From positions 1-36,931 of the forward strand of contig JALOPS010000010.1 of the NCBI GenBank assembly GCA_025453745.1: a stretch of DNA of 36,931 bases. Reading direction: 5' to 3'. Below, one piece after another: positions 20,155 to 27,179 of the stretch (its first letter is position 1; the number at the start of each line of letters is the position of its first letter). Position numbers and translations under genes: made by a program. The notes under the pieces are model-generated. The model was not told where the DNA came from. It did no database searches and was given only the letters and a program-made list of their open reading frames with translations. Source of the stretch: Gemmatimonadaceae bacterium (lineage in GTDB: Bacteria; Gemmatimonadota; Gemmatimonadetes; Gemmatimonadales; Gemmatimonadaceae).

Positions 20155-20307
20155 TCACGCGTCCGACACGTGAGGTGCCGCACGCGGATTGTCTCGGTCC
20201 GGCAATCCCTGAGTGCCGCTCTGTGCGCCCCTCTTGTGCGATTGCGGTCCGGAGCGATGTGTTGAGCAGATCTGCATGATGATCCGACCGGCTGGTGTAC
20301 GGAGGGC

Positions 20308-20318
20308 ACGGTGACCGT
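20308..20318. promoter_or_regulatory. Palindrome upstream of the sigma-FecR fusion gene
   Basis: ACGGT-G-ACCGT is a perfect palindrome 33 bp before the start codon. It sits inside a wider imperfect inverted repeat (GTACGGA...TCCGTGTAC). GGATTG/CAATCC arms also occur near 20191-20213. A role as operator is possible but unproven. Confidence 0.25.
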
Positions 20319-20350
20319 TCCGTGTACCGGCCATTGCATGGAGTCCAGCT

Positions 20351-21640
20351 ATGCCCACCACGGCCCTGCCCCGCATTCCGGCCGCCGATGTCGAGGCGCT
20401 CCGACGTGGCGACGAACGTGCCTTCGAGCGACTCGTGCGCACCGAATATCCCGCCGTGCTCGACATGGTGCGCACCGAACTCGGCAAGGACGCGGCGCCG
20501 TACAAGGCGGTAGAGACCACGTTTCTCCGCCTGTGGAATGCGCGTGAGACGCTCGACGGCCCCGACGCGATCGCACAGTTCCTCCGCGAGACCTCGCACG
20601 AGCTGGCGCTGCGCGAGAAGAGTCGCCGCGGTGCGCTGCACCGGTTCGAAGCGCACGAGAACGTCCGCATCGAGCACGGGTCGCACGGTCCCGAGCTCAC
20701 GGTCGATGATGTGTGGTCGCGCATCACCGACACGCTGCACGCAAAGCCGCTCGACGCGGCCGACATGCAGCAGCGCGACCAGGTGCTCCGCCACGAGGCC
20801 GCGCAGCATCTGAGCGCCGCGACGGCGCGCAAGAGCCCGGTGGGCCTCATCGTCGGCATCGCGGTGCTCGGCGTCGCACTCGCCGTCGGATTGCGCATGA
20901 TGTCCAAGGGCGGTGAAGTCTACGCGCTCAACAAGGCGCTCGCCGCCGATGACGTGCGTGCGTTGCAGGCGCAGTTCGGACAGCGCGCGAACGTGACACT
21001 CGGCGACGAAACGAAGCTGCTCATCGGCGCCGACAGCAAGGTCACGGTCCCCTCGGCGTTCGGCAACACGCTGCGCGGCGTGAAGCTGGAAGGGACCGCA
21101 TCGTTCACCGTGGTTCGTCCTGCAGCGACGGACGTCGATCCGTTCGAGGTGCGCAGCGGCGGCATTCGATTGATCGCCAAGGGGACGATCTTCGATGCGC
21201 GCACTGACCTGGGCAGCGATCTGTTCCTGCGCGTGCGTGAGGGCACGGTCGCGGTCTCGTCGAAGGCGCACGACACCGACGTGGCCACCGGCCGCACCGT
21301 CAAGATCGACTCGACCGGCGTGGTGACCGATGCATCGGCCGCGGAAGCGGCGACGGCCTTCGACTGGGTGGATGGCAAGTACACCACGGCGACGGGCGCC
21401 ACGCTGCGCACGGTGCTCCCCGAGCTCCGGCGCTGGTACCGGCTCGACCTGAGCGTGGTCGACAGCGCGCTGCTCGCGAACCCGGTGAGCTTCACGGCCA
21501 GCCTCGAGTCGTCCAAGGAAGCGATCGCGGCGCTCGAGCAGAGCGGCGGCGTGAAGTTCGGCTACGACAAGGACGAGAACATGATCCTCTCGAAGGCCCC
21601 ACCGGCGCCGGCGCCCAAGGCCGCGAAGAAGGCCCGGTAG
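20351..21640 (+). CDS. ECF-sigma region 2-like domain fused to a FecR-type anti-sigma module
   Basis: The 429-residue protein joins parts that are normally two proteins. Residues about 10-100 read like region 2 of an ECF sigma factor: [20 protein letters not shown], then [12 protein letters not shown] and [14 protein letters not shown]. No region 4 (the -35-binding helix-turn-helix) follows. A linker with [20 protein letters not shown] leads to a single span (about 163-184, [20 protein letters not shown]). The periplasmic part is a FecR domain (about 215-325, with [20 protein letters not shown]) and a C-terminal DUF4974-like unit (about 335-415, [20 protein letters not shown]). The tail is Lys/Ala/Pro-rich. 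GGAG ahead of the ATG supports the start. No separate sigma gene or receptor adjoins it. It may act as a membrane-held regulator or an anti-sigma factor with a sigma-mimicking domain; both are inference. Confidence 0.85.
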
Positions 21641-21700: not shown

Positions 21701-21773
21701 CGCACGTCCGCGACCCGCGGCACCATGCGCATCCAGTGCCCGTGCCCGAACGTATCGTTCGCAGGCAGTGCGC

Positions 21774-22925
21774 ATGCAGGCGCACCCCTCGTCTCTCACA
21801 CGGCCCCACGTGCTCCGTTCCGTTGTCTTCGCGCTCGCGGCGTGTACCGCGTTCGCCACACCACTCCTCGCACAGTCTGCCGCGCGCGATACGGCCTATC
21901 TGGCCGGCGGCTGCTTCTGGTGCATGGAAGAAGCGTACGAGAAGGTCACCGGCGTCGCGTCGGTGGTCTCGGGATACATCGGGGGACGGACCGCCAATCC
22001 GACGTATGGTCAGGTATCCAACGGCACAACCGGTCACTACGAAGCGATCGAGGTGATCTTCGACCCGCGCCAGATCAGCTACGCGCGCATCGTGGGGCAG
22101 TTCTGGAAGAACATCGACCCCGAAGACGCGTCGGGGCAGTTCTGCGACAAGGGCGACCAGTACCGCGCCGCGCTCTTTCCCCGCACGGATGCGCAGTGGC
22201 AGGTCGCCACGGCGGCCAAGGCGGAACTCGACAGCCAGAAGCGCTTTCCGCAGCCGATCACGGTGGGGATCGTGCGGGCGACGACGTTCTACGCCGCCGA
22301 GGAGTACCATCAGGACTACTACAAGAAGAACCCGATCCGCTACAAGTTCTACAAGTACAATTGCGGTCGCGCGCAGCGCCTGGAGGCGGTGTGGGGGCGC
22401 GTCTCGTCGCGCGCCGTGCGACCCAACGGAGGAGTGTCGGTCGTGTCGAATACCATGAAGGCCGGTTGGACGCTGCCCGCCGGGTGGCGCAAGCCCGAGG
22501 ATGCGTCGCTCAAGCAGACGCTGACGCCGATGCAGTACAAGGTGACGCAGCGCGAGGGGACGGAGCGGCCGTTCCAGAATGAATACTGGAACGAGCATCG
22601 TGCGGGGATCTACGTCGATATCGTCTCGGGCGAGCCGCTGTTCTCGTCGGCCGACAAGTTCGAGTCGGGGACGGGGTGGCCGAGCTTCACGCGTCCGCTC
22701 GAGTCGGCGAACATCCGGGAGAAGACGGACCGCTCGTGGCTGATGACGCGTACCGAGGTGCGGTCGGTGCACGCGGACTCGCATCTCGGGCATGTCTTCG
22801 ATGACGGACCGAAGCCGACGGGGCTCCGGTACTGCATGAACTCGGCGGCGATGCGGTTTATTCCGGTGGAGGAGATGGAGAAGGAGGGGTACGGGGCGTA
22901 CCTGGCAAGAGTGAAGAGCAGCTGA
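21774..22925 (+). CDS. msrAB: Exported MsrA-MsrB fusion, peptide-methionine sulfoxide reductase
   Basis: This enzyme reduces both S- and R-methionine sulfoxide. The 383-residue protein has a signal peptide ([18 protein letters not shown]), then the MsrA domain with GGCFWC (Cys47 catalytic, Cys50) and [12 protein letters not shown], then the MsrB domain with [25 protein letters not shown] and [12 protein letters not shown] (Cys354 catalytic). The MsrB part lacks the CxxC zinc ligands ([10 protein letters not shown] instead) and has Thr where many MsrBs have the resolving Cys (SGTGW). The same variant is familiar from PilB-type fusions. No thioredoxin-like domain precedes it, so an external reductant is needed. 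The signal peptide sends it to the periplasm. Start at ATG 21774; GTG 21768 is an alternative. The stop lies in a repeat copy of the next feature. Confidence 0.96.
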
Positions 22926-23227: not shown

Positions 23228-26200
23228 TCACGGCAGCGGCCGTTTCCCCCACGTCGGCGGCGCCGGCTCCTTCATCAACCGCGGACTCGGCCGCTCGCGC
23301 AGCATCCGCATCGCCTCCGCCACCGCACGCTCGAGCTGCGGATCCCGCCCGGCGATCATTTCCTTGGGCGTGTTCTCCACTTCGATATCCGCCGCCACGC
23401 CGACGTTCTCCACGTCCCACCGGCCATCGCGATCGAAGAACCCGATGCGCGGCGCCACCAGCCCACCGCCATCGACAAACGGCGGTTGATCGCTCGTCGC
23501 CACCAGCCCGCCCCACGTCCGCGTGCCAATGAGCGGCCCGATCTTGCGACGCTTGAACATGTACGGCATCAGATCCCCGCCCGACCCCGCCATTTCGTTG
23601 ATGATCATGACCTTGGGACCCCAAATCCCCGCGCCCGGACTCGTGAACGGCACGCGATCGCCGACCGGATTGTTGAAGTACCCATCGAAATCGCGGCTCA
23701 GCAGCTCGATGATGTAGTCCGCCGCCGATCCGCCGCCGTTGTAGCGCTCGTCGATCACGGCGCCCTGGCGATCCTGCTGCGCGAAGTAGTAGCGATTGAA
23801 GTTCGTGTACCCGCCCTGCCCCGTGTTGGGCAGATGCAGATACGCCAGCTTTCCGCCCGAGAGCGAATCGACGATGCGCCGGTTCCGCTCCACCCACGCG
23901 CGATTGCGCAGCAACCCTTCGTTGGCGACCGGTACGACGGTGACCCGCCGAGCGCCGGCGAGTGATGGCGTTGCACCGACCGTCAGCACCGTCTGCCGGT
24001 TCGCCGTGCCGTCGAGCAGGCGATAGATGTTGTCGCGCTCGGAGAGCAGCACACCGTCGATCGCCAGCAGGTACTCGCCCGCACGCACGTCCACGCCCGG
24101 CGCCGCCAGCGGTGCACGCACGTCGGGGTTCCAGCTCTCGCCCGTCAGCACGCGCGCAATGCGATACGCGCCGTTCTCGATCGTGAGGTCCGCACCAAGC
24201 AGTCCCACCGACGCCTGCGGGACATCGGGGAAGTCTCCGCCGTTGACGTAGGAGTGACCGACGGCGAGTTCGCCGGTGATCTGATCGAGCAGGTACGTGA
24301 GATCCGCGCGGTGCCGCACATGCGGTACGAAGCGCTTGTACATCGTGAGCACCTTCGTCCAGTCCGTGCCGTGGAAGTTTGGCACGTAGAGATAGTCGCG
24401 CACCTTGCGCCGCGTCTCCTCGACGATCTGCGTCCACTCCGCCTGCGGCTCGAGATACATGCGCAGCGCGCTGTTCAGTCTCCCGCTGCCTGCTGCCGGC
24501 GCACCCGTGGCATCGACGAGAAAGAGGCCGCCCTGCGCGCCACCGGTGCGATAGAGCAGCTTCTTGCCATCGGCGCTGACCGTGAACTGCACCGCACTCG
24601 GGGCAAACACCGCCGCCTTGCGATCGCGCAGCACATAGCGGTGAATCGGCCCGCCCGGCGCGGTGCGATCGGCCGTCCCTGTCTCCGGCACGTTCTCCCA
24701 GAAAAACACCGTGCCCGCCGCACCCGCGGTGAGCAGCGAGTAGTCGCGCGGCGCGACGCCGGGCACCGCAAGGATGCGCTGCGCGATGCCGTCGAAGTCG
24801 ATCGTCACCGCCTGCCGCACCGGCTTGACCGAGTCGCCCGTGATCGCCGCGCCATTCGCCGCGCGCGGCGGCCCCACACTGATCGGCGGCGCGCTCGGCA
24901 GCGCAGTGGGCGTGCTCCCTTCGTCATCCGACTCGGGCGGAAACGGCGTAGGATCGCCCTTGCGCAGCACGGCGACATACAGCGCGCTCTCGCGCGGGCG
25001 CTCGTAGTTCGTCATGTCGAGCCATCCCGTGCGCAGCGCGTAGTTCGTGCTCGCGAGGAACCACAGATGCTTGCCGCCCTGGTCCCACACCGGCCACCAC
25101 GCGTCGGCCAGGCCATCGGTGAGTTGCGTGACCTTCCCCGACTCGACCTCGGCGACATAGATCGCGTGATAGAGCGAGTTGAGGTGCTTCGCGTAGGCGA
25201 GCCACCGCGAGTCCGGACTCCAGACCGGGCGCACCGTGCGCTCCGGTACCATCCACGGATCGGTGTCGATCTGCGTGACGCGCCCCGTGGTCACGTCGGC
25301 CACGAAGATGCGCAGCTTCGCATCGTGCCACGTGAGCTTGCGTGAATCGGGCGACCACGCGGGCGTGTAGGGGAAGGTGGCATCCGGCCAGTCGATCACG
25401 CGCGGCGACGCCACCCCGTCGCTCGGTGCGAGCACGAGCTTGTACTCGCCGCTGGCATCGGAGAAGTAGGCGATCGTCTTGCCGTCGGGGCTCCACGTCG
25501 GGTGACGCTCGGCGACACCGCTCGTGCGCGTGAGATTCTTCCAGTCGCCCTTCTCCGCGGGAATCGTGAAGATCTCGCCACGCGCTTCGACGACGGCGCG
25601 CTTGCCCGTCGGCGAGAGCGCGATGTTCGTGATGCGTGCACCAACGTCCTTCCACTGCGGCGCGGCCCACGGGAAGTCGCCCGTTGCGGTAATCATGATC
25701 GGCTTGGGCGCCGCACCGGCGGTTGGCTCGAGGGTGTGCAGGCGTCCCGCTTGCTCGAAGACCAGCGAGCCGCCACCCGACTCGAGTGTCTTGACGTCGA
25801 AGTCTTTGAACGTCGTGATCTGCGCGACCTGCTTCGTGCTCACATCGTATCGCCAGATGTTCTGCACACCGTCGCGGTCGGAGATGAAGTACACTGCGCC
25901 ATTGAGCCAGACGGGATCGATGTCCTTCGAGCCCGCATGCGGCACGGTGGTGAGGTCGTACGTCGCGAGGTCCACGAGCCAGATCGGCTTGTTCTGTCCA
26001 CCGCGATAGTTGCGGCGTTCATCGTCCCACGAGTTGTTGAGGCGATAGGCGAGCGTCTTGCCGTCGGGGGAGATGTGACCCTGGAACACCCGCGGAATGG
26101 GCATCGCCGTCTCCGGGCCGCCGTCGACGCTCACCGTCCAGAAGCGAAAGGCACCGCCCGGTGCATCGCTGGCGCGCGCACTGGCAAAGACGATGCGCTT

Positions 26201-26563
26201 GGAATCCGGTGTCCACCCCGTCGGAAAGTCGGCGCCCGGATGCCAGGTCAGGCGGCGCGGCTCACCGCCGGACACCGGGAGCACGTAGACATCGGCGCTG
26301 CCGCCGTTGCTCGAGGCAAACGCCACCCACTTGCCGTCGGGCGAGAGGCGCGGATCGCTGGTCGCGCCCTGGAAGCTCGTCAATCGTCGCGCACTGCCGC
26401 CCGCACGATCGACGATCCAGATGTTGTTGGCATACGCGAATGCGATGTGCGTCGCCGAGATCGTCGGTTGCCGCAGCAGCAGCGTGGGGGTGGATTCCTG
26501 TGCCGAGACGTGCGACGCGAGGGCAGCGAGTACGCTCGCGGTGAGGAGGCGGAGCCGAATCAC
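23228..26563 (-). CDS. Secreted tricorn-type protease (S41 family)
   Basis: Tricorn-family enzymes degrade peptides. The 1,111-residue protein has a signal peptide (IRLRLLTASVLAALASHVSA), two propeller regions of WD40/PD40-like repeats (LSPDGKWVAFAS, WTPDSKRIVFAS, WSPDGKTIAYFSD, WSPDSRWLAYAK), a helical and PDZ-like section (about 780-880, AGEYLLAIDGVLL) and a C-terminal S41 protease. Catalytic residues are visible: His770 in GHSYVNGGD and Ser994 in NEMAGSGGD. The closing TRTWGG and VENVGVAADIEVENTP blocks match the family. The start is GTG at 26563, chosen because it begins the signal peptide; the frame upstream runs through a terminator. The signal peptide shows export, unlike the cytoplasmic archaeal enzyme. 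The 3' end stops 5 bp before the inverted repeat. Confidence 0.95.
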   Translation of the reverse strand: MIRLRLLTASVLAALASHVSAQESTPTLLLRQPTISATHIAFAYANNIWIVDRAGGSARRLTSFQGATSDPRLSPDGKWVAFASSNGGSADVYVLPVSGGEPRRLTWHPGADFPTGWTPDSKRIVFASARASDAPGGAFRFWTVSVDGGPETAMPIPRVFQGHISPDGKTLAYRLNNSWDDERRNYRGGQNKPIWLVDLATYDLTTVPHAGSKDIDPVWLNGAVYFISDRDGVQNIWRYDVSTKQVAQITTFKDFDVKTLESGGGSLVFEQAGRLHTLEPTAGAAPKPIMITATGDFPWAAPQWKDVGARITNIALSPTGKRAVVEARGEIFTIPAEKGDWKNLTRTSGVAERHPTWSPDGKTIAYFSDASGEYKLVLAPSDGVASPRVIDWPDATFPYTPAWSPDSRKLTWHDAKLRIFVADVTTGRVTQIDTDPWMVPERTVRPVWSPDSRWLAYAKHLNSLYHAIYVAEVESGKVTQLTDGLADAWWPVWDQGGKHLWFLASTNYALRTGWLDMTNYERPRESALYVAVLRKGDPTPFPPESDDEGSTPTALPSAPPISVGPPRAANGAAITGDSVKPVRQAVTIDFDGIAQRILAVPGVAPRDYSLLTAGAAGTVFFWENVPETGTADRTAPGGPIHRYVLRDRKAAVFAPSAVQFTVSADGKKLLYRTGGAQGGLFLVDATGAPAAGSGRLNSALRMYLEPQAEWTQIVEETRRKVRDYLYVPNFHGTDWTKVLTMYKRFVPHVRHRADLTYLLDQITGELAVGHSYVNGGDFPDVPQASVGLLGADLTIENGAYRIARVLTGESWNPDVRAPLAAPGVDVRAGEYLLAIDGVLLSERDNIYRLLDGTANRQTVLTVGATPSLAGARRVTVVPVANEGLLRNRAWVERNRRIVDSLSGGKLAYLHLPNTGQGGYTNFNRYYFAQQDRQGAVIDERYNGGGSAADYIIELLSRDFDGYFNNPVGDRVPFTSPGAGIWGPKVMIINEMAGSGGDLMPYMFKRRKIGPLIGTRTWGGLVATSDQPPFVDGGGLVAPRIGFFDRDGRWDVENVGVAADIEVENTPKEMIAGRDPQLERAVAEAMRMLRERPSPRLMKEPAPPTWGKRPLP

Positions 26564-26591
26564 GGTGACGAAGGAAGTGGGGGATGCAGCA

Positions 26592-26616
26592 AAGGCCCGC
26601 GAGGGGCGCGGGCCTT
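26592..26616 (-). terminator. Terminator between the HExxH gene and the tricorn gene
   Basis: A perfect 10-bp stem (AAGGCCCGCG against CGCGGGCCTT) has a five-base loop, followed leftward by T residues. It ends transcription of the gene that stops at 26637 and separates it from the tricorn gene on the same strand. Confidence 0.7.
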
Positions 26617-26636
26617 CGGACAACGTGCGAGACGGC

Positions 26637-27179
26637 TCAGCCGCTGGCGGATGCATCGACTTGGGCGACGCGCCGAGCGGCCTCCGACCAGTCGACCGTG
26701 GGTGCGACGTCCTGATCGCTCAGTTGCAGTGATGCGATCGCGCGTTCGAGCACCGGACCGGCCAGCTCGGGCGGCAGCGCCTGACCCAGTTCGAGCTCCG
26801 CTTCACGACAGAGCCGTTCCTCGCGCGGGAGCGTGTCCTGTCGCATGCGGCCGCGCCAGCGATGCACACGGGCGTGTGTCGCCTCGTGGACGATGGATGC
26901 GGCGTGTTGTGCAGCGGTGAACGCGGGGTTGGCGAGGAAGGTGAGCTCGGTGATCACGGCGCGCGTTTGCGGGTCGTAGGCGCCGCGACACGGGAAGCGC
27001 TCGACGGAGATATGGGCCACGTCGCGGCGCATGCGCGCAAGGCGTCGCGGCAGATAGGTCGCGAGCACGCCCAGAGCGGCGTCGAGTCGCTCGATCACAT
27101 GCGGCGTGGCAATATCGTCGCGGCTGTTCGCGACGACGACCGGGATGCCGTGCAGGGTGAGGCGTTCGGTGACGGTCAC
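26637..27179 (-). CDS. Putative zinc metallopeptidase-like protein with HExxH motif
   Basis: The 180-residue protein has a textbook HExxH motif in a helix: AASIVHEATHARVH. An acidic helix that follows (REERLCREAELELG) offers a third ligand Glu, as in gluzincins. The N-terminal third is a small alpha/beta part (LTLHGIPVVVANSRDD, then LARMRRDVAHISVERFPCRG). I see no signal peptide, so it is probably cytoplasmic, and I know no named family. The GTG at 27179 is preceded seven bases upstream by GGAG, which favours it over an ATG at 27248 that would add a low-complexity tail. It is divergent from the PP2C gene. The substrate is unknown. Confidence 0.75.
   Translation of the reverse strand: MTVTERLTLHGIPVVVANSRDDIATPHVIERLDAALGVLATYLPRRLARMRRDVAHISVERFPCRGAYDPQTRAVITELTFLANPAFTAAQHAASIVHEATHARVHRWRGRMRQDTLPREERLCREAELELGQALPPELAGPVLERAIASLQLSDQDVAPTVDWSEAARRVAQVDASASG

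Follow-up and report, generated by a model that had tools for sequence, protein, structure and literature searches.

An open reading frame on a Gemmatimonadaceae contig encodes a protein in which a domain resembling region 2 of ECF sigma factors (hereafter sigma2) is joined through a single membrane span to a periplasmic FecR module, whereas region 4 is missing and the residues expected to contact core RNA polymerase (RNAP) and the −10 element are, as judged by alignment, replaced family-wide. We propose, with a probability of about 0.48, that this protein is a membrane-tethered mimic of sigma2 that is controlled by a FecR-type periplasmic sensor and acts by binding a partner that recognizes sigma2. 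A preliminary description of the same DNA had pictured an ECF-sigma region 2-like cytoplasmic part lacking region 4 and joined by one span to a FecR domain with a DUF4974-like end, and every element of that picture is recovered by the searches and models presented below.

Domain layout and the sigma2 fold

The gene occupies positions 20351–21640 on the forward strand of the window, by which we mean the whole 36,931-nucleotide stretch of DNA analysed here. It opens with an ATG at 20351, preceded by a Shine–Dalgarno-like GGAG, and closes with a stop codon at 21638–21640, so that both ends of the frame are exact. The 429 encoded residues, whose layout is shared by 83 distinct full-length orthologues, run from a sigma2-like domain (residues 11–103; 20381–20659, +) through a flexible linker (residues 104–117; 20660–20701, +), a VDxxW helix that resembles anti-sigma helix 4 (residues 118–130; 20702–20740, +) and a His-containing juxtamembrane helix (residues 136–158; 20756–20824, +) to a single transmembrane segment (approximately residues 163–185; 20837–20905, +), which is evident in the sequence and overlaps a helix at residues 170–197 of an AlphaFold2 (AF2) model built on a nine-sequence alignment. 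Beyond the membrane lie a FecR domain (PF04773, Pfam E 1e-7; residues 206–300; 20966–21250, +) and a FecR_C/STN-like C-terminal domain (PF16344, formerly DUF4974, Pfam E 2.6e-4; residues 350–412; 21398–21586, +), the latter matched in 16 of 21 orthologues in a domain-model search. Foldseek pairs the periplasmic part with the FecR-like structure 4m0h (E 1e-17) and with PupR (6ovk, E 2e-14).

The sigma relationship is faint in the single sequence, for which the Pfam model Sigma70_r2 stays below its cut-off (E 0.1) and the best signals come from the NCBIfam model Sig70_bacteroi1 (E 0.001) and from RpoE in the PDB (E 0.0025). When the N termini of 20 orthologues are aligned and used as a profile, the solved ECF sigma RpoE (9n9q) is found at E 4e-7, followed more weakly by SigW, AlgU, region 2 of Escherichia coli sigmaE, SigL and CnrH. 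An NCBIfam sigma model matches 16 of these 20 N termini (best E 8.5e-8), and a whole-protein profile reaches ordinary Gemmatimonadota sigma factors through its N terminus with E values down to 5e-20. Structure prediction, which the preliminary description had put forward as the test of this domain, gives a region-2 fold at residues 11–103: the AF2 model places the four sigma2 helices at residues 11–18, 22–44, 51–64/67 and 71–103 with a pLDDT of approximately 90, and Foldseek superimposes them on E. coli sigmaE region 2 (4lup, 2map and 5or5), with, for 4lup and 2map, a TM-score on the target of 0.7–0.8 and, in the better alignments, an r.m.s.d. of about 2 Å. Homologue profiles, AF2 and Foldseek together confirm both halves of the protein, sigma2 and the FecR module, at the level of sequence and model.

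The sigma2 fold is under purifying selection and is constrained like FecR, with dN/dS values over 24 independent pairs of 0.19 for sigma2, 0.21 for FecR and 0.34 for the linker. A pseudogene or decaying domain is ruled out by the value of about 0.19, and because selection maintains it, the sigma2 domain must do something. One position outside this domain also stands out: His153 (20807–20809), in the AF2-predicted juxtamembrane helix, is present in 82 of the 83 full-length orthologues and is conserved above every residue of the sigma domain. It may serve in metal binding, as a signal for a protease or in structure.

Signature residues, region 4 and the VDxxW helix

A residue-by-residue comparison set the 83 orthologues against 19 ordinary ECF sigma factors from this phylum. 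We take residue 52 to be the equivalent of sigmaE D48 and sigma70 D403 (from structure 4lup, sigma70 core-binding genetics and the alignment), residue 55 that of sigmaE Q51 and sigma70 Q406, and residue 56 that of sigmaE E52 and sigma70 E407, all of them core-binding positions of region 2.2; residue 84, in region 2.3, presumably matches sigmaE N80, the Asn contacting the −10 element, and residue 88 sigmaE N84. Positions that serve the fold are kept, with W62 in 78/83 orthologues and 19/19 ordinary sigmas, and R65 in 81/83 and 17/19. The contact positions are not. Within the region 2.2 helix (residues 51–65; 20501–20545, +), residue 52 is R or K in 76 of the 83 orthologues and never acidic, whereas it is E or D in all 19 ordinary sigmas; residue 55 is Q in 5/83 against 19/19, and residue 56 is acidic in 4/83 against 17/19. 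Residue 84 is N in two orthologues (17/19 in ordinary sigmas), and residue 88 is N or D in three (16/19). Because the core and −10 contact residues are thus replaced, the alignment makes it very unlikely that the protein directs transcription as a sigma factor. Sigma regions 2.1 and 2.2 are the parts that bind the beta′ clamp helices (PMC7406223).

The same replacements bear on a role that the preliminary description had entertained, an RNAP decoy in which the tethered sigma2 would occupy the beta′ clamp helices and lower the access of sigma factors or tether RNAP to the membrane. The retained sigma2 fold speaks for such a decoy, but the clamp-binding positions equivalent to D403, Q406 and E407 are those that are lost, with the charge at 52 reversed in the 76 orthologues, and we therefore disfavour it and give it only a very slim chance. 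The two other roles that the preliminary description offered, a membrane-held regulator released by proteolysis and a sigma-derived domain reused for a partner, both stay in contention.

Region 4 models match none of the 21 orthologues searched, whereas the control searches with ordinary sigmas of the same phylum return region 4 at E 1e-12 to 1e-17. AF2 places only two low-confidence helices between sigma2 and the membrane, and a hidden sigma4 in this interval is ruled out by the region-4 models, the AF2 model and the control sigmas. What stands where sigma4 and anti-sigma helices 1–3 would be is the linker, with low pLDDT and high entropy. Nor is a DUF4880-type anti-sigma domain, which the preliminary description had named as the contrary outcome, found in the protein or its orthologues, in a search for which the control is weak (DUF4880 is recovered in only one of six ordinary FecR proteins).

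The VDxxW helix just ahead of the membrane is shared with ordinary FecR proteins, in which it aligns with the fourth and last helix of the anti-sigma domain. These proteins align to the orthologue profile only from about column 107–111 onwards, and in this alignment nothing recognizable as the preceding anti-sigma helices is seen in the fusion. Class I anti-sigma factors bind sigma4 through helix 1 and the 2.1/2.2 face of sigma2 through helix 4 (PMC7406223). Since sigma2 and helix 4 are kept, and sigma4 and its anti-sigma helices are gone, one chain would amount to half of a sigma/anti-sigma complex.

We looked for covariation between the two parts by mapping a published contact list, which gave 15 helix-4/sigma2 pairs; an alignment to RseA had set the register in advance. 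These pairs covary above background (P = 6e-5 with a 20-letter alphabet and 0.0097 with a reduced one), and among nine registers the expected one scores best. An acidic residue 55 goes mainly with a basic residue 124, and vice versa; on the tree, about 2 of 3 independent pairs agree with this relationship and none opposes it, which is not significant, as independent changes are few. A contact between P51 and W122 was set aside, as W122 changed only once on the tree and the contact is left without independent support. Aromatic–proline contacts are seen in other anti-sigma groups. The covariation is suggestive only of a helix-4/sigma2 contact and is weak after correction for descent. Because independent changes on the tree are too few, we infer, and do not observe, the docking of helix 4 in cis.

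Distribution, loss and genomic surroundings

Full-length orthologues, defined as covering at least about 395 of the 422 profile positions at E ≤ 1e-113, are found in 86 of 179 genomes of the Gemmatimonadaceae, a family of soil bacteria, and the next proteins in the profile search are ordinary FecR proteins with E values no better than about 1e-53. The recurrence of the same fusion in 86 genomes rules out chance or misassembly. No full-length match is found outside Gemmatimonadaceae among 298 genomes drawn across the phylum, one genome-contig scan with two short patterns gives no full-length orthologue beyond the phylum, and a scan of a viral collection gives no relative. The fusion proteins form one clade both on the tree of FecR domains (support 100) and on that of sigma2 domains (support 96), and because they do so on both, the sequences point to a single origin as most likely, followed by vertical inheritance. 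Two genomes with unusually many FecR paralogue matches (27 in G007 and at least 10 in G137) have no full-length sigma2–FecR fusion among those found. Another, G090, carries a second N-terminal match (L093; G090:C185:4625-5098) that is broken by a contig end, its full copy lying on C160; L093 is possibly a second paralogue.

Whether the N terminus is always fused to the FecR part was a question raised at the outset, and the fusion holds in the 86 genomes with one natural exception. In five genomes of one genus (G085, G075, G086, G077 and G079), the orthologues (L088–L092) are without sigma2 and helix 4 and keep the transmembrane segment, FecR and FecR_C. Each begins with a short His-rich leader, preceded by a good Shine–Dalgarno sequence, that leads into the transmembrane segment and FecR, and no sigma2 remnant was seen upstream in any same-strand frame. 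The His-rich motif is partly kept, with a His at or adjoining position 153 in most members. These five orthologues form one clade (support 100), and therefore represent a single loss. Because this sub-clade keeps the periplasmic part alone, that part must have some use without sigma2, and sigma2 is not needed for every role of the protein.

The genomic surroundings offer no regulatory partner. As first described, the gene has no FecA-type receptor and no separate sigma gene adjoining it, and the same holds at 24 other loci. Across the 25 loci, with flanks of up to 8–10 kb, no neighbour is common to more than four, and the one larger cluster appears to be an antisense shadow of the fusion gene itself. 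Within the window, the gene is flanked by that of a small membrane protein on the opposite strand and, downstream at 21768–22925, by that of a fused MsrA–MsrB methionine sulfoxide reductase (MsrAB), an adjacency that other genomes do not conserve. Farther along, at 23228–26656 (−), lies the gene for a Tricorn-type protease, which combines a beta-propeller with PDZ and S41 peptidase domains.

Upstream, an imperfect inverted repeat is visible by eye at 20294–20328 (GGTGTACGGA ... TCCGTGTACC, 8 of 10 positions complementary). It lies about 20 bases before the start codon and is, from its sequence, a possible operator. A promoter and terminator scan gave nothing above chance, and no shared promoter element was seen when part of the upstream regions was compared by eye.

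Known systems and candidate functions

The closest known protein in architecture is Pseudomonas putida IutY, an ECF243 hybrid with the order sigma2–sigma4–transmembrane segment–FecR (PMC5411451, PMC9249621, PMC8999054). The preliminary description had stated that FecR proteins are usually separate from the sigma factor, which leaves out this characterized precedent. Both IutY and the fusion combine, in a single polypeptide, a sigma-derived cytoplasmic part, one transmembrane segment and a FecR-type periplasmic domain. IutY becomes an active sigma factor after cleavage by Prc and then RseP, and its gene lies beside the receptor gene iutA (PMC5411451, PMC9249621). The fusion, in contrast, has no sigma4, no core and −10 contacts and no adjacent TonB receptor with a signalling domain, and because sigma4, signature residues and receptor all fail, we do not file it as an IutY-type sigma. 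FecR and PupR (class I anti-sigma factors, AS243) share with it the FecR and STN-like C-terminal domains, VDxxW as the last cytoplasmic helix and one transmembrane segment; the fusion differs in carrying sigma2 in place of anti-sigma helices 1–3 and in lacking an adjoining sigma or TonB receptor gene. Some sigma factors (ECF48, ECF52, ECF53 and some ECF36) are likewise fused to membrane anti-sigma parts in one chain (PMC8999054), but by their descriptions these parts are zinc-finger (ECF48/52/53) or DUF2275 (ECF36) domains, with FecR not among them. No paper joining Gemmatimonas, FecR and a sigma factor was found in a literature collection that includes few subscription journals.

Two further systems show what a sigma-derived unit can do. 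The alphaproteobacterial general stress response employs PhyR, whose sigma-like domain titrates an anti-sigma factor and whose contacts to promoter and core RNAP are degenerate (PMC8103513); the anti-sigma factor is NepR. The sigma fold and the degenerate contacts recur in the fusion; however, PhyR combines sigma2 and sigma4 parts in a soluble response regulator, whereas the fusion has sigma2 only, is membrane-bound and carries a transmembrane segment and FecR instead of a receiver domain. RsoA of Bacillus subtilis is, like the fusion, a sigma2 unit without sigma4, but this soluble protein functions together with SigO, its neighbour, whereas no sigma4 partner was found for the fusion.

In the mechanism that we favour, a periplasmic or outer-membrane signal would be read by FecR/FecR_C, as in cell-surface signalling; STN signalling-receptor domains in the bacterium’s own genome give sub-threshold matches only. 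At rest, the helix at residues 118–130 would cap the protein’s own 2.1/2.2 face, which may then be freed or withdrawn, either by a change of conformation or by proteolysis of the Prc/RseP type seen in IutY and FecR. The freed surface would bind a sigma2-recognizing partner, most likely the anti-sigma domain of an ordinary FecR protein encoded elsewhere, and binding would release the sigma factor of that FecR protein, a partner switch by sigma mimicry as in PhyR. Candidate partners are at hand, because ordinary sigma/FecR sets coexist with the fusion in the same genomes, and the genome encodes an RseP-family protease; we count both in favour of the sigma2 mimic. It is also favoured, from sequence, model and analogy, by the sigma2 homology and fold, the absent region 4, the loss of signature residues, purifying selection, the one clade on both trees, the interface covariation and the PhyR precedent. 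Weighing against the sigma2 mimic are the lack of a partner in the neighbourhoods, the few changes behind the covariation, the sigma2-less sub-clade and the fact that PhyR itself is soluble with both sigma2 and sigma4.

Much of this evidence could also be read as a self-locked plug, in which sigma2 and helix 4 form a permanently capped, IutY-like remnant that anchors, orients or stabilizes the FecR sensor, with output elsewhere, for example through a receptor or cell-envelope partner. The single loss of sigma2 in a sub-clade that still has the transmembrane segment, His motif and periplasmic domains would suit a plug, as would the loss of RNAP and DNA contacts and the lack of a regulatory neighbour among the 25 loci. 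A plug, however, need not keep conserved surface basic positions such as R/K52 and R/K92, and against it stands also a sigma2 as constrained as FecR (0.19 versus 0.21); we regard it as unlikely, though a serious contender.

A working, IutY-like sigma would instead have proteolysis free the N-terminal part to direct transcription, either unaided or together with a sigma4 acting in trans, in the way that RsoA works with SigO. The domain order is that of IutY, sigma4 excepted, SigO–RsoA provides a precedent for sigma2 and sigma4 as separate proteins, and the RseP-family protease is in place, but the replaced and charge-reversed core-binding residues of region 2.2, the lost equivalents of sigmaE N80 and N84, and the absence of sigma4 from the protein and of any plausible one from conserved neighbours make this distinctly improbable. 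The VDxxW helix, transmembrane segment and FecR modules, all as in ordinary FecR proteins, would fit a FecR protein of the classical anti-sigma or pro-sigma kind, with direct binding of a sigma factor, for example at its sigma4, by the cytoplasmic part and with sigma2 in place of anti-sigma helices 1–3. The sigma4-binding helices, helix 1 above all (PMC7406223), are nevertheless absent and no sigma gene adjoins, leaving this reading a slim chance.

The sigma2 mimic has a fuller version that we hold more tentatively, at well short of even odds: half of a sigma/anti-sigma complex, frozen in one membrane protein and stripped of its transcription function, may, through partner switching, relay a signal from the periplasm to other sigma/anti-sigma pairs across the Gemmatimonadaceae, a previously undescribed design. 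To our knowledge, IutY is the one characterized sigma/anti-sigma hybrid, and sigma mimicry is best known to us from a single soluble alphaproteobacterial system. A membrane-bound, region-2-only and sigma-dead version, kept by selection family-wide, would unite the two ideas and would make it possible to test cleanly whether region 2 can serve as a signalling surface by itself. The fusion would also offer a stand-alone entry to cell-surface signalling in a poorly studied phylum.
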